DNA from: Glandiceps talaboti | Lineage: Eukaryota > Hemichordata > Enteropneusta > Spengelidae | Length of the DNA: 64,000 bases | Reading direction: 5' to 3' | NCBI RefSeq assembly: GCF_964340395.1 | Contig: NC_135555.1 | Location: 860,001 to 924,000 of the forward strand | Shown here: one piece after another, positions 1-38,986 of the stretch | Layout of the letters: every line of letters begins with the position of its first letter | Position numbering within the stretch: position 1 is the first letter of the stretch | Program-made: the position numbers and the translations under genes | The notes under the pieces: generated by a model | Told to the model about the DNA's origin: nothing | The model's database searches: none | What the model saw: the letters and a program-made list of their open reading frames with translations, nothing else

Positions 1-3000
1 GGGACATCTACAACAGTCTACTCCAATGGCGGGATTATTCTGTCACATGATCCCAGCTTTTACCCGTCATACACCACCTGTACTCAGACTATTTTTGCCA
101 ATGGACACTATGACAACGTCTATCTCAAGTTCATCAAAATTGACTTAATATATTCGTATGGTAGGTTATCGTATTCTGATCCTTCAAATTCCTTTAACAG
201 ATAAATAGTCACTGGTTAGGAAGAGACTATAATAAGGTGTAAATGGAATACACTGGGATTATAGTAATGAAGTGAATAACAAGACCCAATCGATGATTTA
301 TTATCCTCCTTGACATTAGCCTAAAATCCAGACGACTGGGAATTTTAAAATTTAATTTCCCAGTCAAAATATTGTGTTGGGCAGATAACGAATCCAAAAA
401 AAACCACCCGCATGGATTCCATGCTACTTTGAAACAATATCTACAAAACATACACAAAAAGTCATGAAAATATATCCCATTCAAAATATACATTCGTACC
501 TATCCACCTACCTACCCATATTCATACATACACACATACACACCTATATACATACCTACCCATTCATCCATCTACTTACCCACCAATACCCATATATTTA
601 CACACACACACACCCCCCCACACACACACACACGGAAAGATTAGCTTAATACCACCAGTGCAAAATCTTCATCTCACTGACGTCCTCCACCCAGCTGACC
701 CAGAAAAAAGCTTGTATTCAACCTTTTAGTAAAGACATAGTTTTCCTTTTTTATAATTTTAGGGTGCAGCAGTGACTACATTACAGTAACTGATGCATAT
801 GGTACTGTCCAGGGAATATTTTGTGACTACACGAGCACGACAGAGTTTACTACGGACAGTGGTAGCTTGACAGTCGCTTTTACGGCGGGTTACCATTACA
901 CTTCTTACGGTGGATTCGAAGCAATCTTTACTCTGTATAGTAATAATTGTAAGTATCACCCTGCATGTTGGTACTTATATTGTAAATATCGCCCTACACG
1001 TTGGTACATATATTGTAAATATCGCCCTACATGTTGGTACATATATTGTAAGTATCACCCTACATGTTGGTATATATATTGTAAGTATCACACTACATGT
1101 TGGTACATATATTGTAAATATCACCCCACATGTTGGTACATATATTGTAAATATCACCATGCATGTTGGTACATATATTGTAAGTATCACCCTACATGTT
1201 GGTACATATATTGTAAATATCACACTACATGTTGGTACATATATTGTAAATATCACCCCACATGTTGGTACATATATTGTAAGTATCACTCTGCATGTTG
1301 GTACATATATTGTAAATATCACACTACATGTTGGTACATATATTGTAAGTATCACTCTGCATGTTGGTACATATATTGTAAATATCACCCCACATGTTGG
1401 TACATATATTGTAAGTATCACTCTGCATGTTGGTACATAAATTGTACATACCTTACAGCTTAAGTACAAAGGCTTCTGACTACATTTTGTTTCGTTTCAC
1501 CTCTTGATGGCTAAGCTTGCATGGATGTTTATGTTAGCACGCCCTCGAAATGTTGCAAACTGTCTACCCAGTAACAAACTGCCCAATCATGGCTCCCCTG
1601 ATATCAAATTACAGATAACTTCTTGAAATAACGATGTTGCAATTAAAAATTTCGTCACTTGTCCAGTTTTCCAATTTTAGTACGAAATCATATAATTCAT
1701 ACAGATGATGAATGTTTTCATATCATGACCGGTGATTTGTTTGTTGTATTTCTTACACAGACGGTACTTGCTACAGCTATGATTTTAATTGTAATAACGA
1801 TTGGTGTATAGACAATGCTCTTCGTTGCGATGGCAACAATCACTGTAGTGATTATTCAGACGAAGTTGATTGTGATGAACCAGGTATGTGAGATATTAGT
1901 CATCTCTTACAGGTATGTGAGGTATTAGTCATCTCTTACACGTATGTGAGATATTAGTCATCTCTTACAGGTATGTGAGGTATTAGTAATCTCTTACAGG
2001 CATGTGAGGTATTAGTCATCTCTTACAGGCATGTGAGATATTAGTCATCTCTTACAGGTATGTGAGATATTAGTCATCTCTTACAGGTATGTGAGGTATT
2101 AGTCATCTCTTACAGGTATGTGAGGTATTAGTCGTCTCTTACAGGTATGTGAGGTATTAGTCATCTCTTACAGGTGTGTGAGGTATCAGTCATCTCTTAC
2201 AGGTATGTGAGGTATTAGTCATCTCTTACAGGTATGTGAGGTATTAGTCATCTCTTACAGGTATGTGAGGTATTAGTCATCTCCTACAGGTATGTGAGGT
2301 ATTAGTCATCTCTTACGGGTATGTGATGTATTAGTCATCTCTTACAGGTATGTGAGGTATTAGTCATCTCCTACAGGTATGTGAGGTATTAGTCATCTCT
2401 TACGGGTATGTGAGGTATTAGTCATCTCTTACAGGTATGTGAGGTATTAGTCATCTCTTACAGGTATGTGAGGTATTAGTCATCTCTTACAGGTATGTGA
2501 GGTATTAGTCATCTCTTACAGGTATGTGAGGTATTAGTCATCTCTTACAGGTATGTGAGGTATCAGTCATCTCTTACAGGTATGTGAGGTATTAGTCATC
2601 TCTTACAGGTATGTGAGGTATTAGTCATCTCTTACAGGTGTGTGAGGTATTAGTCATCTCTTACAGGTATGTGAGGTATCAGTCATCTCTTACAGGTATG
2701 TGAGGTATTAGTCATCTCTTACAGGTATATGAGGTATTAGCCATCTCCTACAGGTATGTGAGGTATCAGTCATCTCTTACAGGTATGTGAGGTATTAGTC
2801 ATCTCTTACAGGTATATGAGGTATTAGTCATCTCCTACAGGTATGTGAGGTATTAGTCATCTCTTACAGGTATGTGAGGTATTAGTCATCTCTTACAGGT
2901 ATGTGAGGTATTAGTCATCTCTTACAGGTATGTGAGGTATTAGTCATCTCTTACAGGTATGTGAGGTACTAGTCATCTCCTACAGGTATGTGAGGTATTA

Positions 3001-5014
3001 GTCATCTCTTACAGGTATGTGAGGTATTAGCCATCTCTTACAGGCATGTGAGGTATTAGTCATCTCTTACAGGTATGTGAGGTATTAGTCATCTCCTACA
3101 GGTATGTGAGGTATTAGTCATCTCTTACAGGCATGTGAGGTATTAGTCATCTCTTACAGATATATGACGTATTAGTCATCTCCTACAGGTATGTGAGGTA
3201 TTAGTCATCTCTTACAGGTATGTGAGGTATTAGTCAGCTCTTACAGGTATGTGAGGTATTATCATCTCTTACAGATATATGACGTATTAGTCATCTCCTA
3301 CAGGTGTGTGAGGTATTAGTAATCTCTTACAGGTATGTGAGGTATTAGTCATATCTTACAGGTATGTGAAGTACTAGTCATATGTTACAGGTATGTGAGG
3401 TATTAGTCATCTCTTACAGGTATGTGAGGTATAATTTGAACTTCGATCATCCTTACAAGGGCCGGTGTATTGGCAACATGTAAATAACCCACGGGGGGGG
3501 GGGCTAAAACTAAAAGGAAAAACAGGTAATTTGAAAACTTACATAATACTCTCCTAAACGTAATTGGTGAATGACACCGAGTGTTAAAATGAGAGAACTA
3601 AAACTACGTATGGCAAAAATGGCTATGACAAAGTACTAAGAAAACCATTTTATCTTCCAAACAATGGAGTTTGTACTAAAGTTGACCTAGTATTCTTGAA
3701 ATTTTTATAAGCAATGAATTAAGGCTTTCTCATCGTACTACGATTCATAGCGGGGTGGGGGTGGATTAGAACAATTAGAAGTCTAAACTTTATACCTTTA
3801 TATCTTTAGCTGATATTGGAGCAATAGTTGGTGGAGTGGTTGGAGCCATCTTTGTTCTTATCGTCATAATAGCAATCGTAGCCTGCTGTTGTTGCTGTTC
3901 TAAAAAGTCATCATCAACCGCGCCATCTACCACAACACCAGCTGCGACAACACAACCAAATACGGGGAGCACCATGTAAGTATCTGCGGTACCTTATAAA
4001 ATGTCATATAAGGTGACAACGGTAGTAGAGTGGACAGTAGCAGGTTTTGTGGTAGACAGATAATTCATATGAACTCACGTGTGTTTGAATTCCAAGATGA
4101 TTCATCGTCAAACTGTTAATATCGATGCCATTAAGTTACTTATTAAATGCCTTGACAGACACTTTAAGCATTCTCCACTGTATATAACTAACAACAAAAG
4201 TAAACTTGTTTTCTGTGGTATCAGCACAATTGCCTATAGAAAACGATAAATGAAACAAATACCTAATAGAAACAAGGGTTTGGATATTATCTCACACTCG
4301 TGTCGAGTCTACATAAAATATTAATTTCTCGACCAATTTTTATTTATTGTTGTGTTTGTTGTTGTTTACAGTCCTACAGTCACTTACCATGTACGGATGG
4401 TTGCACCACAAGGCTACAGTGGTGGATACAACAATCAAGGTTATAATACAGGTCCACCTCCTATTCAGGGACAGACCAATACGGCAGCTGCTCCAGTAGA
4501 TAACACTCCGATGCCACAATCTATGGGGTACAATCCGGCACAATATCCACCCCCAAAGTCGGATGCTGTGGGGTACAATCCAGTACAACATCCTCCCCCA
4601 CAGTCACAATCTATGGGGTACAATCCGACACAACATCCTCCCCCACAGTCGGATTCTGTGGGGTACAATCCGGTACAACATCCACCCCCACAGTCGGATT
4701 CTGTGGGGTACAATCCGGCACAACATCCTCCACCACAGTCAGAATCTATGGGGTACAATCCGCAATACCCTCCCCCACAGTCAGAATCCACGGGGTACAA
4801 TCCTGCACAATACCCTCCCCCACAGTCAGAATCTATGGGGTACAATCCAATGTACCCTCCTCAACAACAAGGATCTGCAGGATATAACCCTGCCTACCCA
4901 CCTGCGACTCAGGGTGTAAATGTACCACCGGAATCAGTTGCCTATGGTGATACTGCGGGCTCCCCTCCTGCTATGCCTCCTCCAACCTATGACACCGCAG
5001 TGAGCCATAAATAA
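1..5014 (+). CDS. CUB / LDLa / transmembrane protein with Pro-Tyr-rich tail (5' partial)
   Basis: Coding exons as read: 1-160 (enters from the left edge), 763-948, 1761-1883, 3810-3975, 4372-5014; phases join to 425 residues and a TAA stop. The first two exons make one CUB domain (Cys in YTTCTQTI, then GCSSDYITVTDAYG and IFCDYTST). The third encodes an LDL-receptor class A module (CNNDWC, LRCDGNNHCSDYSDEVDC) with the acidic calcium-binding pattern. The fourth encodes a hydrophobic helix (IGAIVGGVVGAIFVLIVI) followed by ACCCCCSKK, a likely palmitoylated juxtamembrane cluster, then a Ser/Thr/Pro-rich stretch. The last exon is a cytoplasmic tail with about nine imperfect 13-residue repeats around GYNPxQxPPPQ and a PPTY motif that could bind WW domains. 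Likely a cell-surface receptor or adhesion protein; ligand unknown. It is a paralogue of the next gene with the same intron phases. I do not recognise a named orthologue. Confidence 0.8.
949..1443 (+). repeat. 15 x 33-bp minisatellite starting at a 5' splice site
   Basis: The array begins at the first intron base after the CUB exon ending at 948. Fifteen units of exactly 33 bp follow without indels, each starting GTAAGT (7 units) or GTAAAT (8 units) and ending ATATATT; a degenerate GTACAT follows at 1444. The unit lacks stop codons in the coding frame, so the exon frame reads on to a stop at 1461-1463. Each unit would encode 11 residues of the type CKYHPTCWYIY. Confidence 0.95.
1884..3430 (+). 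repeat. about 53 x 29-bp minisatellite of fused splice acceptor and donor
   Basis: The array starts at the donor of the LDLa exon (ends 1883). The unit is 29 bp, beginning GTATGTGAGG and ending TCTCTTACAG, so each unit boundary reads CTCTTACAG/GTATGTGAG. Variants include GC in place of GT at some starts, CTCCTACAG, and one single-base deletion near 3260. It fills most of the 1.9-kb intron before the transmembrane exon. Confidence 0.95.
4519..4860 (+). repeat. 39-bp coding repeats in the CUB gene tail
   Basis: Imperfect 36-39-bp units encode the 13-residue motif centred on GYNPxQxPPPQS. The period is a multiple of three and some units are one codon shorter. Reading frame is kept throughout, and the array is open in other frames as well, which is why long spurious reading frames overlap it on both strands. 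Confidence 0.85.
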
Positions 5015-9781: not shown

Positions 9782-11051
9782 ATGTACAAGATAAAGACAT
9801 TATTCATCATTGCATTTACCCTGATAGAGGGCGTCTTTCTCGTTCGAGATCATGGAACTGATGTAGTTCATCACCAAGGTAAGGGTAAAGTTGTGGTCAT
9901 GGCAATAAAGCAGTTGAGATTAATTTCATCCATTGACATTTCTTTGACGTTGTAGTCTTGACTTTCTTAATACAGAAAGAAGAGCACTCGGAGACTGTGG
10001 TGGGAATTTTTATACAGATACAGGGCAATTGGCTTCACCAGGTTACCCAAGTGATTACTCAGATGATCAGAACTGTTATTATTATATATACACCACATCT
10101 AATCTACGGATACGTGTAAGTGTAGCCCGTGAAGTGTAGTTTTAGCTCATTTGCATTAGATATGCTATTGATCTCATATAAAGTGTAACCATGGTAACAG
10201 TATGAATAAGCTGATACCTCATTATAGTATCAGCAAGTCAGTCTTGGAGACCAACAAGGAAAAAACAGCCATCCAACATACCTACACACCTACACACACC
10301 TGTATTCACACAGACAGAAAGACAGACTGCATAGAGTACAAATACCTAAAATTTGCACTTCGGATTCATTCTAGTTGGCATTCTCGCTGTTCATCACTGA
10401 ATCAACGCATGATTACGTAGAAGTGTACGACGGTTCAACGACATATGTCTCCTCATTTGGCAAGTACTCCGGGTCAACCATTCCCTCCATTATTCACTCC
10501 ACGGGTTCATCCCTCCTCCTACATTTCCATTCCGACTACGCAGTCTCATATCAAGGATTCCTTGCCACATATACTAGTGTCTCTGAAGTTGCTGCTGACA
10601 CATATAACTTTGGGGACTGTGGCGGTACTCTGACTTCAGAAACTGGGGCTATTGTGTCACCTAACTATCCGTACTATTACACTGAAAATGCAGACTGTTT
10701 TTTCTACATATCGATTTCATCAGGACAAACCGTAGAGGTAAGACAATGTGTATTTCAGAATCGTGTATGCCAACTCTGCTTTTCAGTGACACAATCAGAT
10801 ACACTTACATTCATATCATGACGAAAGAACTCAGCAACTATCAACTACAACATATATGTGTAAATGTGTAAAGGAAAAAACGTTCATTTATGACCTGCAG
10901 ATGAGCCGGAGATATGTTTGGGGCAAAATGTTGGCGGGCGGGGGGGGGGGGGGGGGTACTCAAAAGACTGTGACAAGTAGGGCGTACTAAAATCTATTTT
11001 GTAGTATACAAAAATGGGTAAAAAGACATGAGGTTCATCGATAAAAATCTC

Positions 11052-11110
<59 letters not shown>

Positions 11111-11255
11111 ATACCCATCATGTTACAACGATGTTATCCAAATTTCTATATTCAGTGATGTAGGCCTAGCGGCTAAGGATCTCTATAAGGTGATCTAAAG
11201 GCCAAACACATGGAGCTAGGGCTTACATTTGTACTTGTAAGATGGTGATTCCATG

Positions 11256-11289
<34 letters not shown>

Positions 11290-11375
11290 TGTATGTATGT
11301 ATGTATGTATGTATGTATGTATGTATGTACGTACGTACGTACGTTCGTGCGTGCGTGCGTGCGTGCGTGCATGCA

Positions 11376-11410
<35 letters not shown>

Positions 11411-11554
11411 ATGCATGCATGCATGCATGTATGTATGTATGTATGTATGTGTGTGTGTGTGTATGTATGTATTTATGTTTGTATGTTTGTACCATAGTAT
11501 AGTCTTAACTAGTGATTGGCAGGAGATTAACTTTACCAGTAGCCAATAAGGATA

Positions 11555-11597
<43 letters not shown>

Positions 11598-14500
11598 ATA
11601 TATGTGCGTGTATGTGCTTGCGTGCGTACCATGGATGGGTGTATGGGTGTGAGTGTTGATGTATACCTGTTTATTATTCATGTGTTTATTTGACTATTGT
11701 AAATTGAAGCTAATCCTGTGTCCATTGTGAGTAAATAAGCAAGCAAAATAATCTAACTGTCTTTTCTTCAACAGCTTGAATTTGACACGTTTTCATTAGA
11801 AACGTGTTGTGATTACGTGGAGATTTTTGATGGAAGTTCAAGGTCATCACCTTCCATTGGCAAATACTATACATTCCCCGGTTCTGTGATTACGTCATCT
11901 GGGTCCAACCTCTTGCTCTACTTCCATTCTGATGATAGTATAAGCAGTCAAGGATTTTCTGCTTCATATGGACCTGGTACTGGAAGTAAAGCATACAGTA
12001 TGTAAAAATGATATTATATTATATCATGCTACTATGCGCCATTCTGATTGGATAATAACTGTGGTAAAATCCCATTTTACCACGGCTGGCAGTGGTAAAA
12101 TGGGCCCCTAAACTAGCATATGAATAGTACATACAAGCTGAATGTGTTCGTTCTTATACCAATAAGTTAACACTTCCCCAGAGTAAAGGTGTGTCAGGTA
12201 TCCTGTACAATAGTTTGGGTTACAGTAGTCCAAATAATTCCACTGATGACCTTGCGATCGAAAGCAACTATCGATTAGTGGCTTCAACATCACTGATAAG
12301 GTACAAGTTCTCCCAATGCAACGAGCCGTCTCAGCGTCCTACTCTCGTTACGCGTTGAATCAAGCAACACCGATTCAACTTTTAACCATCAGTCAAGGTG
12401 CGTCAGGATTATTTCGAAACTGTACATTTTCAGGTTCGGTCAATGTTCAATTTGTTACCCATTAAATTAAAGTAGACTGTGTAACGTCGCGTCTCTGATT
12501 TACTGTCTCGCGCCTTCTCCGATTCAACGCCGAGACATCTATTTTTAGCAGTGTACAAGATTGTATTGTTCTTACGAAAATATCCAAACAAAATTGTTAC
12601 TTTCTTTGACCTCTTACCCCCTTTTCTTTGTTGCTAGTTTTCAACGCGTTTTCGTTATGCATTATATGATGTAAATAAAGTAATTTATAAATGCAATGCA
12701 ATGCATTGCAATGCAGTGTATGGTTGTGTTCATGCAGTGTGTGTGGGGGCTACATGAACGTATCCACTCATTAAAATATGCTCGTTCCCGACGATCTATT
12801 ACCGACGATCTTTTTCTGTACGTGCGAATTCGCCTTTTCGGGCATATAAATAACCACAGAATCACATTTAGAAGAAATATACACACATTTTGATATAATA
12901 TAATAGCAATAACTCCCGCCGAAGGAGGGTATACACTCGAATTTGGTACAATTCGCTCCATACCCGCCTTCGGCGGGGGTTATTGCTTAACTCTATGTAA
13001 CTATAACGTTCCGTATTTGAACTGGACAAGTAAACTTCTACTTTAAACTTTCCAGGGTATATACATTTTGAACTGACGACAAAACCCCGGGAATCAATTT
13101 TCTATAAAAACCAAGTTTCTGAAAATTTCTTCAAACTATGCCATTTGAGAGTTTTGTCTGGTCCTTTTTGAAATAATCATAGAATTGTTGCTGTCGTAGT
13201 CTTTATTCAAATATCAATAAAATTATCAATCGTTGATTTTTCCACAGTATTTTGCGGCGGGTCATATTGGATTTTAAAATCGGCGGTCATATTGGATTTT
13301 AAAATCGGCTAATTTTTATATAATTTTGTCCCCTGTTTAAAACTTCTGTTCAGTAATCAAGAGAGAGGTTATCATTTTCTTTCTACGTTACATGTACATT
13401 TGTAATTTGTTATGACGAGTGGGGTTGATAGCCTATCGTCCCAAACAAACAAATCTCCTAGCAGGTGCAACGGTAGAAAAGATTTCAAAATTTCCCACAC
13501 GTTTGTGCGTATAGAATATCAACGGAGGTGAAGAATGATTCATGGCCAAGCGTTCTTTAAAAAATCAGCCCATGAGAAGATTTTTCGAACAACACTGCAG
13601 GTAGATTCGCCATAACTTAAATTTTGGCTTTGTTTCAACTTTTAAGTTTGCAGTGACACTTCCTCGAGTGTGGATATATTCGGTGGTACCATCCAATCCC
13701 ATGACCCTGACACAAATCCTTCATACACGACTTGTACTCGAACGATTGTTGCCGATGACAGCTTTAATCAAATATATCTCAAGTTCACCAAGATCAACCT
13801 TGCAGAAGATACTGGCGGTTAGTTAAAGTTTTAATATACTTTGTCATGACGCGTGACGTCAATGTACAGTACAAGGCACCCTGTAAGAAGAAAATCAGTT
13901 ATCAGCTGCAGTGATTAACTTCTAACGAATCAGAGATTACTTGACAATGACAAGTTCATTGATACAGAATCAATGAATAATCAATAATATTTAAATTCTT
14001 AATTATCGCATTTCGCCTTGGAATTTATCCGAATATTATCAAATTTTACAGAAACAACAAGTCAACTTTATTAACTTTAATGACTTTGGACGCTACTTGG
14101 GAACATAATATAGTTTTCGTTCTGTTTGGTTTTCCAATTCTGTTTGGTTTACCAATATGTAGAGACAACGAGAAAGTTTACACAGGAGATGAAAAGTATT
14201 GTTTTTTATATGAACAACTTCTGATTGTAGTTTCGTTTGTTTTATCTGTCACACAATCTTACACGTGGTACAAATATTTCTAAATTGTCGTTATAAACAG
14301 TTGTGAAATAAGAATACAACACTTTCTGATTTAAAGTTATTGAAACTCCGAGTCGTGTGGTAAGTAGGTAAAATCTACCCGAATTCTTCCTGGTAATTTC
14401 ATTGGGGTTCCTACCATGCAAAATTATGGTTCAAGGTATGGAAATCTGTCATGTAAGTTTTTTCAGAATTTCACCATCTTTTACTGGGGTTCACATACGA

Positions 14501-15839
14501 AAAGACTGACATATTAATGTGGTGACAGTTGTGAGAAGGTTTACCAGTCTGGAATAAAGACAAGCGGGAGAGGGTGTGTTAGACAATCGAACGACGAAAT
14601 TTGCCTAAATCTGAATCAAATGTTTCTCCTTCTCTTTCAGGATGTGATAATGATTATGTTACTATTACTGATGCATACAGTAATCAACTTGGCAGTATAT
14701 GTGACAGTGATGGCAACACAGAATTCACAACAAATAGTGGTAGTTTAACATTGTCTTTCACGGTTGGATACCATGATACACCTTATGATGGATTTGAAGC
14801 AGTTTTTACTCTCTACTATTCCTCATGTAAGCAACATTCGTCTGATGATTTATATATTATGTGATTTTAGCATGGAATGGCGAGAGAAAATTGAGGTCAA
14901 ATGACATATAACGTTCTTTCAAATACATACAAGGGTATCGTTTTGATAAGAAGCAATTAATTATTCCGTCACCTGATCAATGCTGAAGATTTCGTCTACA
15001 GTGAAGCTTTCAAGTAAATTTTACAAGATTATTTTGACAAAATTATAAACTTTATAAAATTATGTTAAAGGAGTACATTTTGTAACTTTACGAATCGCAC
15101 AAAGAAGGCAGTAACCAGGGTAACGAAGCGTGACCATGAGTCATATTGTTTCCTGACACCGTGATTTCAACGATTCTGATACGTCAAAAAAAATATACAT
15201 TTGTGTTACTGTAGTATAACGTGAAGGAACGATGTCGACACCCACTCCGACTCATTCACTAGCATTTGAAATTGTATGACAGTGGAAGGGGTTCTTTCAT
15301 TGAGCATTCTAGAAAATTATATTTTATTCATAAATATGATACAAGAATAATCGACCAAAACTATGTCAACCTAATACAACATTCAATCAGTCAAATGAAC
15401 CGCACAGTTCTACACACACACACAAGCAGTTTGTGCAAACTGAGTTTACACGCTTTTTATACTAGGGAGACAATACTTCCATAGTAAACCTGTATATTCT
15501 TAGTTAATGTTGAGGCATACTTTCTGGGTGTGCGCGGCTTTGTGGGTATTACACATAGTCGTGAATGCCATTAACGGTTCATAGACTCGACACGTGTAGG
15601 GTCTACAGTTTCAGGTTGCTGACATACACACTTTTACAGATTTTTTTTTCGTATGTACCTTTGCAGACGGCGTTTGCTTCAGCGATCACTTCCTATGTGC
15701 CAATGACAAATGTATATATTCTACACTTCGTTGCGATGGTAACGACCACTGTGGAGATGATTCAGATGAAAAAGATTGTTCAAAAGGTACATTTGAATTT
15801 TTGTTCCAACTCAAGATCGATCTGAAAACAAGTAAATTC

Positions 15840-15893
<54 letters not shown>

Positions 15894-17243
15894 TAGATAG
15901 ACACATGTATACCTAGCTAAACAGATACAAAGTCATACTCATATATACATATAAACTGACTGACTGACATATATCAACAGAGACATACAGCGACAGGATG
16001 ACGGGTAGACATATACATCTATTGGATTGATGGACGGACGGACGAACGGATGGATGGATGGGTGGGTGGGTGGACGGACGGATGGATGAATGGATGAATG
16101 GATGGATGGATGAATGGATGAGTGGATGGATGGGTGGGTGGGTGGGTGGGTGGGTGGATGGATGGGTGGATAGATGGATGGATGGATGGATGGATGGATG
16201 GATGGATGGATGGATGGGTGGATGGGTGGATGGACGGACGAATGGGTGGATGGATGGATGGATGGGTGGGTGGGTGGATGGATGGGTGGATGGGTGGATG
16301 GGTGGATGGACGGACGAATGGATGGATGGATGGATGGATGGGTGGGTGGGTGGATGGATGGGTGGATGGATGGATGAATGGGTGGGTGGGTGGATGGATG
16401 GATGGATGGATGGGTGGGTGGATGGATAAATGAATGAGTGAATGAACGAACGAACGAATGGGTGGATGGATGGATGGTGGATGGATGGGTGGATGAATGG
16501 ATGGATGGACGAGGTACGGACGGATTGATAGGCTGACGGATGGATAATGTCACGAAGACATCAGTCAAAATTTGTTACCCTCTATTTCTACCATACAGTT
16601 CCCGTCGGTGAAATTGTCGGTGGAGTTATTGGTGGTCTTATACTACTTGTTATTATCATAGTTATCATTTATTGCTGCTGTAAAAAATCGTCATCCAGTG
16701 CGCCCTCAACATCTACAGCTACATCAACAACTCGAACTGGAAGTAGGCCCAGACCAGTAACGACGACTGTCCGCCCAGTTGAGCCAAAACCAAAGGTGTA
16801 TGTATTCATTTAATTTGATTGCAATATATCCAATTCTTAACCATACATATTTCAATAAATAAACCAATATGAACAAACATTTTACAAGTTATTACTAATG
16901 TAAAAATGTTTATTATTTTATACTCTTTGTCGACAGAACCGTCACATACAATATACGGATCACGGCAGCACCAGGATACACGGGTGGACAAAGCAACCCA
17001 GGATACGATCAAGGTCAATCATATCCACCACCATCCTCCAGTCCAATGTATCCTCCTCCAATGCAGGGACAGGGTCCGAGTACCAATACAACAGATGATC
17101 CGGCATACCCGCCATCGTATCCACCATCTACGGGATACGACATGGCATATGCACCTCCACCATCAGATATTAATGCACCAGGACCAGCAAAGTATGATGA
17201 TCCGGCATACCCTCCACCATCAATGCCTCCCCCTTCGTCATAG
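9782..17243 (+). CDS. CUB x3 / LDLa / transmembrane protein with Pro-Tyr-rich tail
   Basis: Nine coding exons: 9782-9878, 9976-10115, 10375-10737, 11775-11997, 13647-13817, 14641-14826, 15667-15786, 16599-16797, 16937-17243. They sum to 1806 nt with consistent phases (601 residues plus TAG). The start ATG opens a signal peptide ([20 protein letters not shown]). CUB1 ([12 protein letters not shown] to YQGFLATY) is split by an intron. CUB2 is [12 protein letters not shown] to SQGFSASY, with [13 protein letters not shown]3 has [25 protein letters not shown] and SICDSDG. An LDLa module follows ([26 protein letters not shown]), then a helix ([18 protein letters not shown]), CCCKKSSSS, and a tail rich in YPP with PPSY motifs. 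CUB1 lacks the usual third and fourth cysteines. The 11997/13647 junction is the least certain: I chose donor A/GTATGT and acceptor TTTTAAG because they restore the first CUB3 cysteine in phase. Surface receptor by inference; tandem paralogue of the preceding gene. Confidence 0.82.
11050..11110 (+). repeat. (AAC)n microsatellite
   Basis: About twenty CAA triplets inside intron 3 of the second CUB gene, preceded by an 18-base poly-G run near 10941. Confidence 0.95.
11253..11605 (+). repeat. alternating purine-pyrimidine microsatellite (GTAT/GTAC/GTGC)n and (TG)n
   Basis: About 225 bp of GTAT, then GTAC, GTGC and ATGC units, nearly perfect purine-pyrimidine alternation, ends near 11480. A separate TG tract lies at about 11558-11594. 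Both are within intron 3 of the second CUB gene. Confidence 0.95.
11998..13646. other. intron 4 of the second CUB gene with palindromic elements
   Basis: No coding sequence seen. It contains a perfect short palindrome (GTGGTAAAAT, 3-nt loop, ATTTTACCAC; about 12061-12083), a long imperfect hairpin (about 12905-12987), a relatively CpG-rich stretch (about 12300-12530) and a 28-bp duplication (about 13258-13315, TCATATTGGATTTTAAAATC). The hairpins suggest an old MITE. Confidence 0.6.
12905..12987. repeat. long imperfect hairpin (possible MITE)
   Basis: The left arm starts AATAACTCCCGCCGAAGG. The right arm ends CCTTCGGCGGGGGTTATT, its reverse complement apart from small mismatches. The arms are about 35 bp with a short loop around TTTGGTA. 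Confidence 0.75.
15842..15900 (+). repeat. (GACA)n microsatellite
   Basis: About 13 perfect GACA units ending in GATA units, 55 bp after the donor of the LDLa exon of the second CUB gene. Confidence 0.95.
16025..16530 (+). repeat. (GGAT/GGTG)n variant microsatellite, about 500 bp
   Basis: Interspersed GGAT, GGTG, GAAT and GGAC tetramers fill the intron just upstream of the transmembrane exon at 16599. The long open frames here (Met-Asp-Gly-Trp or Ile-His-Pro-Ser runs) are artefacts. Confidence 0.95.
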
Positions 17244-27500: not shown

Positions 27501-30500
27501 AATCCATTACTCAGAATGTTCAAAGGCACTTTACAGGACACTAAAAATAGTTCTTATCAAAATGCTCTCATAAAAAGATGAGTCTTAATGTCTTTCCTGA
27601 ACTTGTCCAGGGTTGGTGATTGACGCAGAGCAACCGGAAGACTGTTCCATAATTGCGGGGCAGCTCGTGAAAAAGCACGTTCACCATAGGATTTAAGTTT
27701 GCAGGGTGGGATGTGTAATAGACCTTTGTTGTTAGAGCGAAGTACACGTGGAGCATGCTTATAACTGATCAGATCCGATATGTAACTAGGTGCAGCATTG
27801 TTGAGAGCTTTGTAGGTCATCAAGAGTATTTTGTAATGTATTCTGTAGTAGACTGGTAGCCAATGTAGATCCTTGAGAACTGGGGAGATATGATCTGATT
27901 TCTTGCGGCGTGAAACAATTCTGGCCGCTGTGTTTTGAGCGTGTTGTAGATGAGTAATGTCTTTAGATGCTAAACCATATAAGAGTCCATTACAGTAATC
28001 CAGTTTGCATGAGACAAGAGCATGGACTAGATTTTCACATGCTTCACTTGTCAGATAGCGACGAATGCGACCAATTTTTCGAAGATTGTAATAGATCGAA
28101 TTGCATGTTATGGTAATGTGCTTCCTAAGAGTGTGTTTATCATCGAAGGTTACACCAATATTGCGTGCATAGTTAACCAAGTCAACAGAACATGATCCAA
28201 TGTTTATACTGTCAATGGGACGGGGTATGCGCATAAACTGAGACCTAATGAGTAGTACCTCAGTTTTACCATCATTTAGTTGAAGTTTGTTTTGTGTCAT
28301 CCATGATTTTATGTCCAGTACTGCAGTCTCCATCTTGGCAACAGTGGTGGATGTGTCAGCCAAAGCAAAGCCTTCATATAGTTGATTGTCATCAGCATAT
28401 TGTATAAAATTCAAATCATGACGTCTTAATAGGGTGGCAAGTGGAGAAATGTAGATGCAAAATAGCAGTGGGCCTAGCACAGAGCCCTGGGGTACGCCAT
28501 ATTGTAGATGTTGTGCTTTGGAGGTGTTGCTTGATATCAATACTGATTGATGTCGGTTCTGTAGGTATGATTTAAACCATTGCAGTGGGATGCCGGTAAT
28601 GCCGAGGTTTGATAATCTTGAAATGAGTATGTTGTGGTCTATTGTATCGAAAGCAGCTGACAAATCTAGAAGAACAAGTAGTACACATTGTCCTTTGTCA
28701 AGTGCTATACAGATGTCGTTGTTTACTTTGATGAGTGCTGTCTCTGTGCTGTGGTGTTTCCTGTAGGCAGATTGTAGTGGCTCTAGTAATGAATTAGCTG
28801 TAAGGTATGCGGTTAGTTGGGCTGCAACGATTTTCTCCATTATTTTAGAAAGGAATGGTAGATTGGAGACAGGTCTGTAGTTCTTGAATACATTGGTATC
28901 AAGTGACGATTTCTTGAGAATTGGTTTAATGACGGCTGACTTGAGTGATTCTGGAACATTACCATGAGTAAGAGATGAGTTAATGATGAAAGACAGAATG
29001 GTCCACAAGTGTTCTTGGCACTGTTTCAGAAGCGATGTGGGGATAGGATCGAGGGAACAGGTTTTTGACGGCGTGCTGTTAATAATTTTGCTGATATCAT
29101 CTGCATTCACTGGGTTGAAGACAGACAGAGAAGACGAAGTATGGGTTTCCAGAGAGTCAAATGCAGGTGTTGGTTGTGAATTGTCAAAGTTAAGGCGGAT
29201 ATTTCTTATTTTGTCAATAAAATATTGACTGAATTTCTCAGTGATATCGTTGACTGAAGTGTGATCTGGTAGGTCATCTTTTTGAGAGTTACTGGACAGA
29301 GTGGAAAATATCTGAAATAGAGTCTTCTGGTTGTTTGAGTTTTCAAGTATCAGTTTGTTGTAGTATGTCTGCTTTGCTTTCTGTAGGAGTTGACGTACAT
29401 CTTTGCCTTTCTCAAGGAAAATTTGTTTGTGAACTTCTAGTTTTGTGTTGCGCCATCGACGCTCAGCTGATCTTCGTCTCTTTTTTGCTTCATCAATCTC
29501 AGGTGTATACCATTTAGTATTAGGCCTTACTGTAATTGTACATTGCTTTAAGGGTGCATGTTTATCCAGAATCTCCGAGAGATGAGTATTATACGCTAAT
29601 ACGGCAAAGTCTAAGTCGGATGGTGGTTGTCTGAAATCTGTTACGGATCCAGTGTCCTTCATGAAATCATCAGTTGAGATTGAGGATATTTTGCGGTAAA
29701 CTATCTTGCGGCGTAATAGTGGTGGTTTCTCCAGCATAATCTTAGCATGAACAGGATTATGATCTGATATTATTTGAGAGTCAACAGAAATTGATGAAAT
29801 GCAGTTTGATTGGTTAGAGATGATGAGGTCTAAAATGTGGCCTTTCACATGAGTTGGTTCCGCTACCCATTGTAGAAGACTGAAGGTATCGAATAAATAC
29901 TTCAATTGCTTGGTGGTAGGGTCTTGCAGATCATCCATGTGAATGTTAAAATCTCCAACAAGGTAGAGGTGCTTTGTCGTGACCACGAGCCTTTCTAACA
30001 ATGAACTAAATTCTAGCAAAAACTGTGTATTTGTGAGTTTATTCTTGGCTGTGGGAGGTGGACGATATACAATGATAATTTTCAATGTGATGCCCTGATG
30101 ACAAAGTGTAGCTTCTGTTGCTTCAAAGGATTTAGCAGATTTTATTGGATTCCATGCTTTGAGTTTGAGTGATGATTTGAATAACAAGCCAATTCCACCA
30201 CCAGTAGAAGAAGTACGTGGAGTATGTTTAAAAGTGTAACCATCAGGGGTGAGTTCATTAATTATATGTTCATCGCCTCTTTCACTCAACCAAGTCTCAG
30301 TCAGAGCAAGGATGTCAATATCCTTCTCCCTAGTGTAGTCTTCTACTTCAGTTGTTTTGTTGCGGACGGATCTGACATTCCATGTAGTTAGCATGAGTTG
30401 GCACTGTCGTTTGATCACACCACATTTGTCGATGGAGTTACAGGTTGGTATTTGAATGAGGTTGTTGAAGTTGACTCCATTTGCACGTGGTTTATAATTG

Positions 30501-33500
30501 AGGTTTGTGATACTAGTAATATTTGTTGTTGTAAACGTTTGGATGGGTCGAACTTTCTTAGTACCACCTCTTGTGCCTCTGTGTGTCACTGGTTTGTGGT
30601 TGAGTCTCAGGGATTTAATGACATTCCATACTGAGGTAGGCAGTCTGGAGTGGTATGAGGTGTTAAAAAGTTGCATAAATGATCTGCTGTACTGCATTGT
30701 TCATCTGTTGAAATATTACCATATGAATACACACAATTTGAGTTGAAAACTATGCATACAGATGACATCTAGGCTGTGTAACTTCTCACACTTCTACATT
30801 ACAAAATTTAGCAAGACTTTTACCAGATATTTAACTTGCTACGAGCGTCTCTGACTTCTGAGATGTTTTCACCGGTGTGACTGAGTATTCATAGACCGAA
30901 AGCTGCATTCATACACAGTAGAAAACGTCTGTAGTCTTGTCAAACTCAGGAAAGTTGTAGGAGCAGGGTTTGGAGGCTGCCAACATGAGGGCGCACAACC
31001 AGTTTACACGTTGAGAAAAGAAGTATTTCCGGATATTCAATCTGACAGTTGGTTTAAAAATCTTGAGTGAGTGTCCTCTTGTCCTGTTTGTTGGATGGTA
31101 GGTGAATAAAACGCTTTGATCAATTTTGTCAAATCCTTTCAGAAAACGAAAGACTTGTATCAAATCTCCTCGCAACCGTCTTTGTTCTAATGTTGTTAAA
31201 CTGAGTGCTTCTAGCCTTTCAACGTAAGTGAGATGTCGAAGTTCATGATGAAATGATGATGAAACAAAGATTAATGGTTTATGGATTATCACATTCTGAC
31301 ATTTATCCACTAATCCTACATCTAATACCTAATCTTTACAAATAGGCCACTTCCTATGATACCAATTTTATGCATAATGTTAAAAAAGAAATCCATAATG
31401 TAGAAGTAATTGGTCAAAATCATTGATACATCATCAAGGAAGGCTCCAATAGACTGTAAGATATTTTGTGTTATTCAGCTCTAACCAGTCTTGTCTGAAT
31501 GAGTACTGGCTGATAGGCTGATATGACATATCATATCTTACAGGTCAAGTTGTGTCATTCAGCCCTAGCCAGTCTTGTCTGACTGATATGTTGATATGAC
31601 ATATCATACAACAGTGAGACACTGTGTATACATTAAGTTGTATTGTTCAGTCCTTATCAGGCTTCTGGTATCTGCTAAGGTGGCATAACACAAAGTAACT
31701 TGCAAACTGATAAGGTTGCACAGCATGTTATATATGATGCACAAGCCAGATTATTGTCTATGAACAGAAAATATGGATTATGTATCCTAGGTTGTTCTAC
31801 AACATGACAACCTATGTTTACGTCGATGATTCTGTGGTGTTTAGAATACTAGTCAATATGTTCCAAATTGCCATTATTTTTCCGGATTTTTCAAAGATTT
31901 TGCTTGAGAAGGAATAACGCTATTATTCCCACAATTGTTATGAATGACAAGGCCTCATTAGGTCATTCATACTTTCCTTGGGTGCATGATGAAAAATTAT
32001 GGTTTCATTTTGGGGGCTGAAAGTTGTATATATTGACCCTGTATATTGACATCCTGCACATCTCTAATATATGAACTTGCCTTCAAAACTGTTGTTGTTA
32101 TGTGATGATAAAAAAAGAACTGTGTTGATTGCAATAAATATACCATGTACCAGTAAAAGAGGATGGGTCTATTTTGGGAGGGTCATTCCTATTGCAACAA
32201 TATGAGAGAGCTTGTTGAATATCTCAGGTACATGTTATGTATATGGTTAAAAGCAGAAATATATTCTAAGATTAAGTGCTTCTTTCCCATATTTTCTGTT
32301 GTTTTGAAATGTTGCCAATAATATCTTCTTCCAGTCAGCATTTATTTACTCTCTTTGTTTGAGTACATTACCAGAACAAATGGAAATGACTGATCATTGA
32401 TCTTGAAGACAACATTTGATCTCACCTGCCAGACTCCCCCTGTTAAAATCTAGAAGACAACGTATGATTTCACCTGCCAGACCCCCCCCCCCCCCGTTAA
32501 AATCTAGAAAACAACGTATGATCTCACCTGCCAGACTTCCCCTGTTAAAATCTAGAAGACAATGTATGATCTCACCTGCCAGACCCCCCCTCCCCCCTGT
32601 TAAAATCTAGAAGACAACGTAAGATCTCACCTGCCAGACTCCCCCTGGTAGTCCTCTACCTAGTACAACATGTGGAATTGCATTGTCTTTGCTATGCTTC
32701 CAGTCCAAGCATGACATAGCATTAGATCCAGTGTCTGCATTAGGATGGTGTAAGGCATCATATAGTAATGCTACTGGGTTAGATGATCTACCTTCTAAAC
32801 CATCACTTAGGTACTCCAAATCCTGAAATAAAGACAAACAAACAAACAAAATTCAAATTATTCTTTATTCTCCTGTCTTGTAGTTTATGCTATCTAAATG
32901 ACATAGAGGCTAAGGAATTTACTATAAAAGAACATTCAATCAATTCATTCTACCTACAGCCAGTGCTGAAATCAAAAGGAACAATTTGATCAAATGGTTA
33001 AAAAAATAGTCTAAGACTGGATAAAGGTATTTTAGCTAGTTGACATTATGACTCGGTCTCAACTATGTAAAATAGATCCATTCAAGTATATTAAGATACA
33101 GAAAAACAGACACACAATATTAAAAACTTGGTAATAATAAAAACAAAGTGATAAAACAATGTCTACTCTGTGTGACATTGAACATTTAATTTCTTTTTAA
33201 TGTGATTTCCCACTGTGTTGAAATAATATTCTTTTTAATGTGATTTCCCACTGTGTTGAAATAATATTCTTTTTAATGTGATTTCCCACTGTGTTGAAAT
33301 AATATTCTTTTTAATGTGATTTCCCACTGTGTTGAAATAATATTCTTTTTAATGTGATTTCCCACTGTGTTGAAATAATATTCTTTTTAATGTGATTTCC
33401 CACTGTGTTAAAATAATACTTTTTTAATGTGCTTTCCCACTGTGTTGAAATAATATTTTTTTAATGTGCTTTCCCACTCTGTTGAAATAATATTTTTTAA

Positions 33501-36500: not shown

Positions 36501-38986
36501 ACAATGATCTCTCTCTCCACATATAGTCAAATGAATTCTACTGAAATTCTTGATAAATCTCCTGCTAGGGGAAGGATGTCAGTAGTAATCCATTACACAC
36601 TGACAAGCAGTTGTAATTGGTTACTTCATTCAGTTTACTACAAACACAACCTCCAATTAAGTCACATGAGAACAGGGTAACATAATCATGTTTATATCAA
36701 CAACACCGATAAACATAATCATGTTTATATCAACAACACCGATAGCATTTAGACTGTGACCACTGTTGATTGTGCAAACAAAATGTGCTAGAGAAAGCCA
36801 CTTGCATATACAATGGAGAAAATGAACCCACACTATAGTTTCTAGAGCCATCCTAATTCTACATGGGGACCTAGCATACTAGTAACATTAACACCTGACA
36901 ACAACAGTGGAGGGATACCTATTTCAATAGACACACTTCACCACAGAGACAATATTGGTGATCATTAAGCTAATAATTGAAAACAGTGGAGTTGACAAAG
37001 TATATACCACTGTCAAGTGAAGAGTGTACACAATGATGACATGCATTGTACTTGTAGTCAAGGAGTAATTTTATTCAAAGAGAGCTCATATTGTCCATGT
37101 GGCACTTGTTCATGGTAGTTTATACCAGTCCTGTTCATTCAGAGACCATGTACATACATACTTATAAAAAAAGGGCAATCTATTCAAATTTATTCAGTTA
37201 TCAAACTTTGTACATTTTGGCCATAACCATTACTACTGAATAAAGTTAAACATACAATAAAAAATACTCAAAATTTTCAGTACTGATTCTGACATTGAGA
37301 TTATGATACCAAATCATTTACATTAATTTACATGTTTCTACCCAGTTTGCATGACAAAGGTCTAATAGTTTGCATGACAAAGGTCTAGTAGTTTGCATGA
37401 CAAAGGTTTGGTAGTTTGCATAACAAAGGTTTAGTAGTTTGCATGACAAAGGTTTAGTAGTTTGCATGACAAAGGTCTAGTAGTTTGCATAACAAAGGTC
37501 CAATAGTTTGCATGACAAAGGTATAATAGTTTGCATAACAAAGGTCTAGTAGTTTGCATAAGAAAAGTTTAGTAGTTTGCTTGACAACGGTCTTATAGTT
37601 CACATGACAACGGTTTAGTAGTTTGTATGACAAAGGTATAGTAAGTTCATATAAGTTTCTGGAATGACTAATTATCTTGTCTTACCTTTTCAATGATGGA
37701 AATGTCCGGATTTTCACTCAGTTTCCGTTGTAAATGAGGAGTAGGATGAGGTTTGCCATTGTAATATGGCCAGTAGCCAGATAAGAGGAAAGACAAACAG
37801 ATTGCTGATGGTCCATTACCTGTAAAAACACAAATTACACAATATTTGTCTTAGCATTTCACAACTTTGATTTACAAGCTCCTTGGTGTGAACTTGGTAA
37901 ATGTGTAACCTTTATCCTTCAACTAAGATGAACTATGAAACTGATAAATAGACATATTTCTGTAAAGTCCAGTTCTTAAGATAACCTACATCATTACACT
38001 TATTGTAGCATAAGACTAGAAAGGCACTGCACATATTCAAAAATATCAAATAATTTAATTCTAACTTATTTCAAAATACAACTGTTTCATACACTCACAT
38101 TCATTATTTCCTTACTCTGGAATTATATCTTGTATCAGTTCTGAACTCAAAGTGTAAATAATTTACCTAGTATATTTTGGCTGAATCACTCTCAACTTTA
38201 CTCTGTAAATTTAATACAATAATCTAACTGGATTATATTATCCATAGGTAACTATATTTATGCTCTGTGTTCAGATTAATACAAGGCATGTGGACATGTA
38301 CAGTTAAGTTGTTGGCTTTTACTAATGAAGTACATATAATATGTATTCACTTGGTATTTGGTTTTTAACTGTAAGAAAACCTATTACTAAGTTGTCATAG
38401 TTACTATGTAAACATAGTTTTTGTAAAGTGATACAGTTCATTATTCTATTTCAAAGAAAAGCTCTGATACACCCCCTCACTTCAATGATGTCTTTCAAGT
38501 TTTATTTGTTTCTACACAAAGAATCAAAAGATGGTTCTAGTCAAGTACCTCCTCCACCAATCACTGTGGGCATGCAATATTACATTTCTGCTACTACTAC
38601 TGTGTGTGTGTCCACATGTCTGTCTCTCTCTGTTCATGTCTGTCTCTGTCTATGTGTTCTGTCTGTCTGTCTGTCTGTCTGTCTGTTTCTGTTTGTCTCT
38701 GTCAATGTGTTCTATCTGTGTCTGTCTGTCTGTCTGTCTTTCACTGTCTCTGCCTTGCATGTGTACTTTTTCTCTCAGTCTCCCCCCCTCCTCCTCTCTC
38801 CCCCCTCCCCCTCTCCTCCCTTCCTACTTGACATCCCATCCTTACCATTCTATTATAGGATATACTTTCAGTACAAATACAAACACAAGCTATACATATG
38901 TCCTATTTACCTATAATGGCAACATCAGTAGTCCAAATATCCTTTTTATTTTGTATGTTGTCATCCATTTTAAACACAGCAGCCAT
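24511..38986 (-). CDS. OSGIN: OSGIN1/2-like FAD-dependent oxidoreductase
   Basis: Coding exons in transcript order: 38986-38911, 37819-37686, 32822-32631, 26148-26057, 25507-24511. They total 1491 nt, 496 residues, with consistent phases; vertebrate OSGIN proteins are about 480-560 residues. The N-terminal dinucleotide motif spans exons 1-2 (DVAIIG/NGPSAICLSFLL). The family signature DLEYLSDGLEGRSSNPVALL and PHVVLGRGLPGGVWQ is exon 3. A second dinucleotide fold lies near residues 311-323 (VVIIGAGLSAADA), with VLATGT near 266-271 and YPEYHKVYKMM and MGPLVGDNFVRFLKGGALA towards the C-terminus. The family resembles flavin-containing monooxygenases; vertebrate members are stress-induced and affect growth, autophagy or apoptosis. 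The exon 1 start ATG gives MAAVFKMDDN; an acceptor (TTTCCTGCAG) just upstream of it implies noncoding 5' exons. Looks like a single co-orthologue of vertebrate OSGIN1 and OSGIN2. Confidence 0.93.
25508..26056. other. last intron of OSGIN, mostly a MITE
   Basis: This 549-bp intron consists of about 120 bp of unique DNA and a roughly 400-bp MITE ending about 20 bp from the donor of the preceding exon. Confidence 0.75.
25630..26036 (-). mobile_element. MITE family A, copy 1
   Basis: About 407 bp with inverted ends: TCATTAGCTGATCGTACC and TCCTAGCCCTTGTATTC on the left, mirrored by GGCCAGCTAACGATGTATC and AGTGCAGTAAACAGGC on the right. The interior (around ACTAGTCAGACTGTCATTA and ATTTACATATGTTTTATG) matches the element at 48352-48765 in reverse orientation at high identity. 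The outermost left inverted repeat is worn away here. Confidence 0.85.
26185..26228 (-). repeat. OSGIN: partial duplication of an OSGIN exon start
   Basis: Exactly 72 bp upstream (in transcript sense) of the exon 26148-26057 lies a diverged copy of its first 14 codons. It reads MENFELTLSFKK where the exon reads MENSKLTLSLKN. The interval is open and in frame with the exon, across its acceptor. The copy has no good acceptor of its own. Confidence 0.7.
26230..27267. other. OSGIN intron 4, unique portion
   Basis: AT-rich intronic DNA between the duplicated exon fragment and the LINE cluster. No coding sequence, structured RNA or repeat was recognised. Confidence 0.6.
27268..27459 (-). mobile_element. 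3' end of a CR1-like LINE, left part (split by insertion)
   Basis: The minus strand reads HWNNLPEHVIGAETVKDF then KIVLDQYWN, the typical C-terminus of CR1-like reverse transcriptase ORFs. A short 3' UTR with repeats of ATATTAAATC follows. It continues the fragment at 31010-31300; the two halves are in frame once the nested element and one ACAC copy are ignored. Confidence 0.8.
27460..31005 (-). mobile_element. full-length L2/CR1-superfamily LINE, nested
   Basis: An element of about 3.55 kb. Its 5' end is near 31005, it has a roughly 300-bp 5' region and an intact ORF (30697-27557). The short 3' UTR has TGTAAAGTGCCTTTGA and GGCGCTATATAA, then a (TTGA)n-type tail at about 27461-27481. It sits inside a CR1-like fragment and is flanked by ACAC on both sides (27456-27459 and 31006-31009), a probable 4-bp target-site duplication. 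It lies in an OSGIN intron in the sense orientation of that gene. Confidence 0.88.
27557..30697 (-). CDS. LINE ORF: APE endonuclease and reverse transcriptase
   Basis: A single uninterrupted frame of 1046 residues. An apurinic-like endonuclease spans about residues 102-320: LTTWNVRSVRNK, ALTETWLS, VYRPPP, LVGDFNIHMDD, HILDLIIS, ISDHNPVHAKI. Reverse transcriptase spans about 545-850: SLDPIPTSLL, NYRPVSNLPFLSKIMEK, LQSAYRKHHSTETALI, LLDLSAAFDTIDHNI, GVPQGSVLGPLL, and the catalytic YADD at 767-770. The C-terminus (FSRAAPQLWNSLPVALRQ, KTHLFMRAF) is typical of L2/CR1-type elements. It would nick target DNA and reverse-transcribe its own RNA. No separate ORF1 is seen in the roughly 300-bp 5' region; residues 1-100 are basic and unassigned. 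All catalytic motifs look intact, so recent activity is possible. Confidence 0.95.
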   Translation of the reverse strand: MQYSRSFMQLFNTSYHSRLPTSVWNVIKSLRLNHKPVTHRGTRGGTKKVRPIQTFTTTNITSITNLNYKPRANGVNFNNLIQIPTCNSIDKCGVIKRQCQLMLTTWNVRSVRNKTTEVEDYTREKDIDILALTETWLSERGDEHIINELTPDGYTFKHTPRTSSTGGGIGLLFKSSLKLKAWNPIKSAKSFEATEATLCHQGITLKIIIVYRPPPTAKNKLTNTQFLLEFSSLLERLVVTTKHLYLVGDFNIHMDDLQDPTTKQLKYLFDTFSLLQWVAEPTHVKGHILDLIISNQSNCISSISVDSQIISDHNPVHAKIMLEKPPLLRRKIVYRKISSISTDDFMKDTGSVTDFRQPPSDLDFAVLAYNTHLSEILDKHAPLKQCTITVRPNTKWYTPEIDEAKKRRRSAERRWRNTKLEVHKQIFLEKGKDVRQLLQKAKQTYYNKLILENSNNQKTLFQIFSTLSSNSQKDDLPDHTSVNDITEKFSQYFIDKIRNIRLNFDNSQPTPAFDSLETHTSSSLSVFNPVNADDISKIINSTPSKTCSLDPIPTSLLKQCQEHLWTILSFIINSSLTHGNVPESLKSAVIKPILKKSSLDTNVFKNYRPVSNLPFLSKIMEKIVAAQLTAYLTANSLLEPLQSAYRKHHSTETALIKVNNDICIALDKGQCVLLVLLDLSAAFDTIDHNILISRLSNLGITGIPLQWFKSYLQNRHQSVLISSNTSKAQHLQYGVPQGSVLGPLLFCIYISPLATLLRRHDLNFIQYADDNQLYEGFALADTSTTVAKMETAVLDIKSWMTQNKLQLNDGKTEVLLIRSQFMRIPRPIDSINIGSCSVDLVNYARNIGVTFDDKHTLRKHITITCNSIYYNLRKIGRIRRYLTSEACENLVHALVSCKLDYCNGLLYGLASKDITHLQHAQNTAARIVSRRKKSDHISPVLKDLHWLPVYYRIHYKILLMTYKALNNAAPSYISDLISYKHAPRVLRSNNKGLLHIPPCKLKSYGERAFSRAAPQLWNSLPVALRQSPTLDKFRKDIKTHLFMRAF
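31010..31300 (-). mobile_element. CR1-like LINE fragment, right part (split by insertion)
   Basis: The minus strand reads HLTYVERLEALSLTTLEQ, RRLRGDLIQVFRFLKGF and RTRGHSLKIFK through RKYFFSQRV, the conserved C-terminal region of CR1-type ORFs. It is 5'-truncated, and the sequence breaks at FFSQRV where the nested element begins. Confidence 0.85.
31301..32410. other. OSGIN intron, unique DNA
   Basis: No gene seen. It contains a diverged tandem duplication of about 80 bp (about 31480-31610) with TTGATATGACATATCATA-like units. Otherwise unremarkable. Confidence 0.55.
32416..32645 (-). repeat. 48-54-bp tandem array spanning the OSGIN exon 3 donor
   Basis: Four tandem copies lie downstream of the authentic exon end. 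On the minus strand each carries GTCTGGCAG/GTGAGATC (one copy GTGAAATC), identical to the exon end and donor at 32639-32623. Units also share TCTAGATTTTAACAGGGG. A poly-C tract varies in length between copies. Confidence 0.95.
33190..33605 (+). repeat. 38-bp minisatellite, about 11 copies
   Basis: Units contain TTTTTAATGTGATTTCCCAC and TGTGTTGAAATAATA. The right-hand copies drift (GTGCTTTCCC, TGTTAAAATAA). Confidence 0.95.
34421..35937 (+). mobile_element. terminal-inverted-repeat DNA element, internally deleted
   Basis: The left end AGGGAGCCACCATTATTTA and the right end (reverse complement) AGGGAGTCGTCATTATTCA match at 14 of the first 17 positions. Both ends are G-rich on the + strand (poly-G near 34540 and 35778). 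The interior holds the last two exons of a gene with an SAP-like motif, then a poly(A) signal context (GCAATAAAGTTTATTATTATT). No transposase is visible and no clear target duplication was found. Superfamily not assigned. Confidence 0.6.
35080..35735 (+). pseudogene. 3' exons of a transposon-borne gene with SAP-like motif
   Basis: Two exons can be read. About 35080-35178 encodes MTIPTNFGNLAYFNITHYC ending at donor CTG/GTGAGTC. 35338-35735, after acceptor CCATCTAG, encodes a basic segment (RSTDRFRKREEEDALTYE), an SAP-like helix-turn-helix stretch (GTLSKLKVKELDKYLERHNL then KKDDKMKAIMADC) and an acidic Ser/Asp/Glu tail (DDSDEDDVVMRDIDSESEES). SAP motifs commonly bind DNA. No upstream exons fit before the left inverted repeat, so the gene is 5'-truncated. 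The frame through the intervening intron is coincidental. Confidence 0.55.
37345..37650 (-). repeat. 23-bp minisatellite, about 13 copies
   Basis: Units of TAGTTTGCATGACAAAGGTC with a 3-base linker. The array starts about 36 bp beyond the donor of OSGIN exon 2 and does not include it. Confidence 0.95.
37820..38910. other. OSGIN intron 1 (between coding exons 1 and 2)
   Basis: Noncoding. A pyrimidine-rich (CTGT)n/(CT)n tract occupies about 38600-38825 on the + strand. Nothing else is seen. Confidence 0.7.

Follow-up and report, generated by a model that had tools for sequence, protein, structure and literature searches.

Tandem copies of a 5' splice site in an LDLa-exon intron of the acorn worm Glandiceps talaboti, most likely a passive duplication of the exon-intron boundary

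Minisatellites that repeat an exon-intron boundary in tandem, known as mirages, have been described in the amphioxus genes Adh3, globins Gb6 and Gb9, troponin C and PGBD5; their copies measure 10-72 bp in Adh3 and, in the globins, about 150-160 bp, and regular splicing is reported to proceed undisturbed (PMC3087553, PMC3902484). Splice signals are combined in other described systems as well: the ratchet sites of Drosophila and vertebrates have a YnNCAG/GTAAGT-like layout (PMC5126111; a slash marks the splice point throughout), the human genes UBC and VCX3A carry dual-specific arrays of tandem AGGT, each potentially a 5' or a 3' splice site (PMC10809524), and in the Rogers model of intron gain, with its potato RdRp case, duplication of an AGGT segment supplies GT and AG (PMC4974935). 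Here we describe a 29-bp array in a gene for a CUB-LDLa protein of Glandiceps talaboti, contained in a 64,000-nt window (positions 860,001 to 924,000 of the forward strand of NC_135555.1, assembly GCF_964340395.1). In this array, which begins exactly on the LDLa exon's 5' splice site, that site is copied again and again, and we consider the array most likely the product of passive tandem duplication of the exon-intron boundary, not a splicing device. The array and its flanks, in window coordinates, are as follows.

1761..1883, + strand: LDLa exon (match to database protein P0121; Pfam Ldl_recept_a, 3.8e-08); the repeat unit ends in the same 3 nt, CAG, as this exon
1884..1889, + strand: GTATGT, the authentic 5' splice site; the units begin with copies of it
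1881..3432, + strand: 29-bp mirage array (from Tandem Repeats Finder and unit tables)
3780..3809, + strand: authentic 3' splice region, with a branch-point-like TCTAAAC near 3782 (by eye) and ATATCTTTAG (from the sequence; P0121 agrees with an exon start at 3810)
3810..3975, + strand: next exon, with a transmembrane-like segment (by eye)

Splicing of 1-160, 763-948, 1761-1883, 3810-3975 and 4372-5014 yields a translation identical at 425 of 425 residues to P0121, a database protein with three CUB stretches, one LDLa domain and, by eye, a transmembrane segment and a GYNP..PPP tail. The P0121 model joins 1883 to 3810, removing the whole array and using its first donor; the original prediction that the donor of the first unit is the real donor of the LDLa exon is thus borne out.

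Tandem Repeats Finder assigned the array a period of 29, 53.6 copies and 94% matches. Counting from 1884, we found 53 complete units, 52 of them 29 bp long and the other (unit 48, at 3247) 28 bp, followed by an incomplete 54th from 3420. Together they cover 1884-3432, and their number agrees with the roughly 53 fused acceptor-donor units predicted originally. The unit consists of CAG, as at the exon end, and the first 26 nt of the intron; the array begins 3 nt inside the exon, copying CAG/GTATGTGAG, and its unit spans the exon-intron boundary, as in a mirage. The bases preceding CAG within the unit, CTCTTA, are pyrimidine-rich and derived from the intron. AG/GT is found at 44 of the 53 unit junctions, the others being AG/GC (4), AG/AT (2), GG/GT (2) and AC/GT (1, at the end of unit 2). 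The claim that each boundary reads CTCTTACAG/GTATGTGAG was therefore right about AG/GT at most junctions but too strong as worded, for the exact 18-mer occurs exactly 30 times in the window, always inside the array. These 30 occurrences were also its only matches in a search of the accessible part of the 590-Mb genome, and we rejected the idea of a repeat common to other loci. The host intron is 1926 nt long, most of it array; inside 1.55 kb the authentic donor string occurs 39 times, mostly with acceptor-like sequence before it.

The copy number of tandem repeats can be wrong in assemblies, and an assembly artefact, or an unrelated satellite lying next to the donor by chance, would also place a repeat here. 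Such an origin seems very improbable: the units bear distinct variants in order, including the 28-bp unit, the 18-mer was matched nowhere else in the genome sequence searched, and anchoring on donors recurs at other genes (see below).

The array resembles the amphioxus mirages in that the boundary is copied in tandem, with AG and GT signals in many, though not all, copies. It differs from them in its hemichordate host, in its 53 copies, in an exon part of just 3 nt, which would make a zero-length exon of each copy, and in lying within one gene together with a donor-only array. As in UBC and VCX3A, where the copy number is argued to be tolerated, AGGT recurs in tandem, and the sequence at 44 of 53 junctions would be compatible with the AGGT-bounded repeat of the UBC type; unlike the 228-nt coding units of UBC, however, the acorn-worm unit is a 29-bp piece of intron with a stop in the exon's frame. 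Similarly, the supply of GT and AG by duplication of an AGGT segment recalls the Rogers model, although here an existing intron grows and no new intron is shown.

The splice signals in the unit are of good quality. Of 54 donors, 39 read CAG/GUAUGUGAG, with a computed energy of -9.1 for pairing with the 5' end of U1, equal to that of the authentic donor, compared with -8.8, -7.4 and -7.5 for the remaining donors of the gene. For acceptors, we used a small matrix built on the window's 16 acceptors, eight of them from our own model of a paralogue: the unit acceptor scored 9.6 against a range of -1.3 to 14.9 for the 16 acceptors left out in turn, 14 of which were lower. Scores as good as this were reached at 5 of 394 other AGGT sites on both strands, and by 1.1% of 6978 AGs, those of the array counted too. 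Both donor pairing and acceptor scores agree with the predicted anatomy of a 3' splice site fused to a 5' splice site in each unit, and by its sequence the unit would place an acceptor-quality AG directly before a donor-quality GT, as ratchet sites do.

These signals raise the question of a recursive-splicing array, in which the intron would normally be removed stepwise through internal zero-length exons and the array would be kept for that purpose. Unit donors and acceptors that score like real sites favour this reading, as does the prevalence of AG/GT at the junctions; furthermore, human AGGT is used as both 5' and 3' splice site 3.1-fold above expectation, and UBC holds a tandem array (PMC10809524). 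A further point in its favour is the near-independence of the outcome from splice order. Allowing first steps of at least 60 nt from any of 48 GT donors to any of 50 AG acceptors or to the real one (counting GT and AG only where they flank a unit junction, and leaving out GC donors and the weaker GAG/GTATTA inside units), we found that on paper 1217 of 1227 first steps still lead to the identical mRNA. One of these is the full excision, and in 1130 an internal stretch is cut out while the outer pair stays; of the others, 43 are ratchet steps by which GT is restored, and 43 skip donors but leave a remainder that can be removed. The ten dead ends lack GT (6) or AG (3) or leave too short a remainder (1). 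The proposal that any number of 29-n steps gives the same mRNA consequently holds as logic, not as measurement. The UBC authors already argue that expansions of this kind do less harm, since splicing can remove them (PMC10809524), so the idea of such confluence is not new in print. Near-independence of the mRNA from splice order may explain why the array is tolerated. The reading frame of the LDLa exon continues into the array as DEPGM and then meets a stop, so that splicing failures would truncate the protein before the transmembrane segment.

However, several observations argue against recursive splicing as the function of the array. An intron of 1926 nt, mostly array, leaves no long intron to subdivide, and 53 junctions about 29 nt apart inside 1.55 kb are unlike the few, spaced sites of ratchet-bearing long introns. 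Nor is AGGT conserved, judged within the array alone: AG/GT carries 9 of 47 substitutions among units against 6.5 expected, hence no depletion, and donor positions +1 to +6 with acceptor positions -10 to -1 carry 28 of 47 against 25.9 expected. Each unit has further AGs (GTGAG, TTAG), and by eye no clear branch point lies at the usual distance. Finally, the counterpart intron of a paralogue (15787-16598 in our model) has no such array, and holds (AGAC)n and (TGGA)n instead. This paralogue lies in tandem with the CUB-LDLa gene at 9782-17243, again in our own model, and its donors are without minisatellite. The last exon of the CUB-LDLa gene, for its part, contains a coding minisatellite at 4518-4893 with a period of 45 bp, or 15 residues (GYNPxQxPPPQS-like).

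Two further donor-anchored arrays in the window bear on the origin of the 29-bp array, one of them in the same gene.

763..948, + strand: preceding exon of the CUB-LDLa gene, whose donor seeds the 33-bp array
946..1450, + strand: 33-bp mirage array, donor only, starting 3 nt inside the exon 763-948
32400..32647, - strand: third mirage, on the boundary of an OSGIN1-like exon 3 (exon end 32631, donor 32630)

In the 33-bp array, ATT and not AG precedes the donors, and this sister array without acceptors also speaks against recursive splicing. Its 15 donors read GTAAGT in seven cases, the authentic one included, and GTAAAT in eight, which have lost G+5. The third mirage has five donors spaced 48-55 nt apart and copies 16 nt of the exon end. 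At each of the three mirages, the first donor is the one used in a database protein. Among the splice sites of the window's three genes, 3 of 16 donors and none of the 16 acceptors fall within a minisatellite at most 20 bp from its edge, and at least three such edge donors were reached in 61 of 20,000 circular shifts. On this edge test we rejected a chance meeting of array and donor, which overlap alone would not exclude.

The two arrays of the CUB-LDLa gene might instead reflect selected tolerance, whereby mirages survive only where mis-splicing is harmless, through AG/GT junctions in the 29-bp array or through an in-frame, stop-free unit in the 33-bp array. They fit these two harmless types: the 29-bp array stops at once, whereas the 33-bp array is stop-free in the exon's frame over all 15 units, and also with 1, 7, 14 or 15 units inserted. 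The loss of G+5 in 8 of 15 donors points the same way. This is suggestive at n=2, and we regard the explanation as improbable in view of the genome survey described below. Use of internal donors in the 33-bp array would add n x 11 residues of a CKYHPTCWYIY-like sequence.

We surveyed the genome with an acceptor-like pattern, three successive CAG/GTRNGT with three pyrimidines before CAG, which gave 166 matches against 59 when read backwards, and with a control in which three purines precede CAG, which gave 310 against 187. Array counts rest on about 100 of the 166 and about 100 of the 310 matches, and the following results hold among these matches listed. For the acceptor-like arrays we read the 5' ends of 11 and of the window array, and for the purine arrays all 10; exon calls are our own, based on an open frame and an acceptor judged by eye, with homology in some cases. 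Of 12 acceptor-like arrays, nine, counting that of the window, begin at the sense donor of a stretch that looks like an open coding exon, and a tenth begins at the donor of a PLAT exon on the other strand (Pfam, 1.2e-8); no sense exon is evident for the arrays on C14 and C15, which by eye lie antisense, in or beside introns. Five of the ten purine arrays start on sense coding-like donors, and one is built on a GT microsatellite. Both patterns together thus place 14 of 22 arrays on a sense coding-exon-like donor, seven of the 14, again with the window array, being supported by gene model or homology. Homology among the acceptor-like cases is to a kinase (Pfam, 4.4e-7) and ABCA (PDB sequences, 2e-14), and among the purine cases to spectrin (Pfam, 3.6e-4, weak), FBF1 (Pfam, 3.9e-10), RalGAPA2 (PDB sequences, 4.5e-7, residues 2-34 of 44) and homogentisate dioxygenase (PDB sequences, 1.2e-8); the kinase, spectrin and FBF1 matches are all below the curated Pfam cut-offs, with single-exon peptides of 38-46 residues. 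Four of the five purine sense cases are supported in this way, and the fifth, L044, was called by open frame. The exon ends copied range from 3 to 42 nt in the 12 arrays measured.

Within the stretch covered by both lists there are 10 purine against 5 pyrimidine arrays, with 5 against 4 on sense exon donors. As purine-context arrays are at least as common, the acceptor-like context appears not to be favoured, on these small numbers. This counts against recursive splicing and also against selected tolerance, for which pyrimidine context should be enriched over purine; a further case that does not fit the latter is L062, on a coding-like donor that reads ATG/GTAAGT, where the first GTAAGT spacing is 50 nt and not a multiple of three. 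Counting all arrays on exon donors among the matches listed plus the window, we arrive at 18 in G. talaboti, 10 of them with gene-model or homology support, which indicates that mirages, as recognised here by sequence, are not confined to cephalochordates.

Two minisatellites, L048 (G000:C5 2222338-2222468) and L040 (2263884-2264428), are separated by 40 kb and possibly belong to one gene; both have PLAT-like exons next to them, recognised by Pfam for L040 and by eye for L048. At L061 (G000:C1:2206655-2207156), a 31-bp array with the unit TTTCAG AC GTAAGT would make a 2-nt exon between acceptor and donor.

A number of points weigh against passive duplication of donor boundaries, or against how widely it applies. 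Eight of the 22 arrays among the matches listed are not on an evident sense donor, and 7 of the 14 sense exons are putative calls made by open frame alone. Among the acceptor-like exon peptides, seven of eight had no Pfam match, the kinase being the exception, and three of the four exon peptides compared with PDB sequences had none there (L027, L034 and L035 were outside this comparison). In a list of GTAAGT repeats not selected for CAG (C1, 0.46-2.93 Mb), two of 11 minisatellites are clearly on a coding-like donor and two more are uncertain, and many such minisatellites are therefore not mirages; AG precedes GT in three of the 11. The underlying pattern, GTAAGT three times over, gave 33,339 matches against 40,410 reversed and was swamped by microsatellites, so the matches listed alone were used, one GTAA microsatellite being dropped. 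Eighteen stretches of 10 kb, 17 hand-picked and the other from L009 (part) just upstream of the window, held 16 minisatellites (period 15-120, at least 3 copies) with one weak fused unit, too few for use. In the window, overlap of donors and minisatellites is not unusual when the edge condition is dropped (at least three in 5282 of 20,000 shifts); the 20-bp edge criterion was chosen after the arrays had been seen, and 8 of the 16 tested introns come from our own paralogue model. The unit acceptor is good, being matched at so few other AGGT sites, and chance or tolerance must be invoked for it. The copy number, lastly, comes from one assembly and one haplotype.

Taken together, the evidence does not support the recursive-splicing device put forward in the original prediction: boundary copies recur across the genome, some of them without acceptor, purine-context arrays are no rarer than pyrimidine-context ones, AG/GT is not conserved and the intron is short. 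A ratchet array kept by selection was rejected on the lack of AG/GT conservation and on the purine control, and we judge recursive splicing as the normal route of removal improbable; ratchet steps are possible as noise, and unsupported as a function. The fused acceptor-donor looks like a by-product, because purine-context arrays are at least as common and AG/GT is not conserved within the array.

Under passive duplication, the boundary of the LDLa exon would have been copied in tandem, and the donor, copied along with the CAG of the exon end, would bring AG directly before GT; the pyrimidine-rich bases ahead of CAG would then make each junction acceptor-like too. The array would be nearly invisible to the mRNA, because on paper nearly every first choice of an internal site leaves a remainder removable to the same mRNA, and this may have let the array lengthen freely and become homogenised. 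We presume that the spliceosome mainly pairs the first donor with the acceptor at 3809 and that recursive steps inside the array, where they occasionally occur, are harmless noise.

Other features of the window lie on the minus strand. A 23-bp array of 13 copies (37344-37643) begins about 43 nt past the donor of OSGIN1-like exon 2 (37685), and this exon opens at 37820 with TTTTTACAG/GTAATGG, a real acceptor with a donor-like GT right after it. A 30-bp array of 3.8 copies (63741-63855) has a unit with a weaker fused AG/GT (acceptor 2.0, donor 7.9), and a long open frame at 27557-30700 resembles, by eye, a non-LTR (long terminal repeat) retrotransposon with endonuclease and reverse transcriptase.

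Our literature search, with older papers largely outside it, found no hemichordate mirages among the papers listed, those seen in print being from amphioxus genes; as far as it shows, hemichordate mirages, their number and the 53-copy case of zero-length exons are new. A bolder view, which we hold tentatively and think rather doubtful, is that tens of donor-seeded fused AG/GT arrays in acorn-worm genes are cut randomly and repeatedly, with an outcome that converges on one mRNA, so that introns could grow without limit, hidden from selection by splicing itself, and the LDLa intron with its 53 units would be the extreme natural test of stochastic recursive splicing. The acorn-worm mirages form a set in which to ask what makes donors seed minisatellites and how introns lengthen. 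Furthermore, since unit variants mark positions along the array, the choice of the first donor among its 39 copies, and any stepwise splicing, could be read from nascent RNA.

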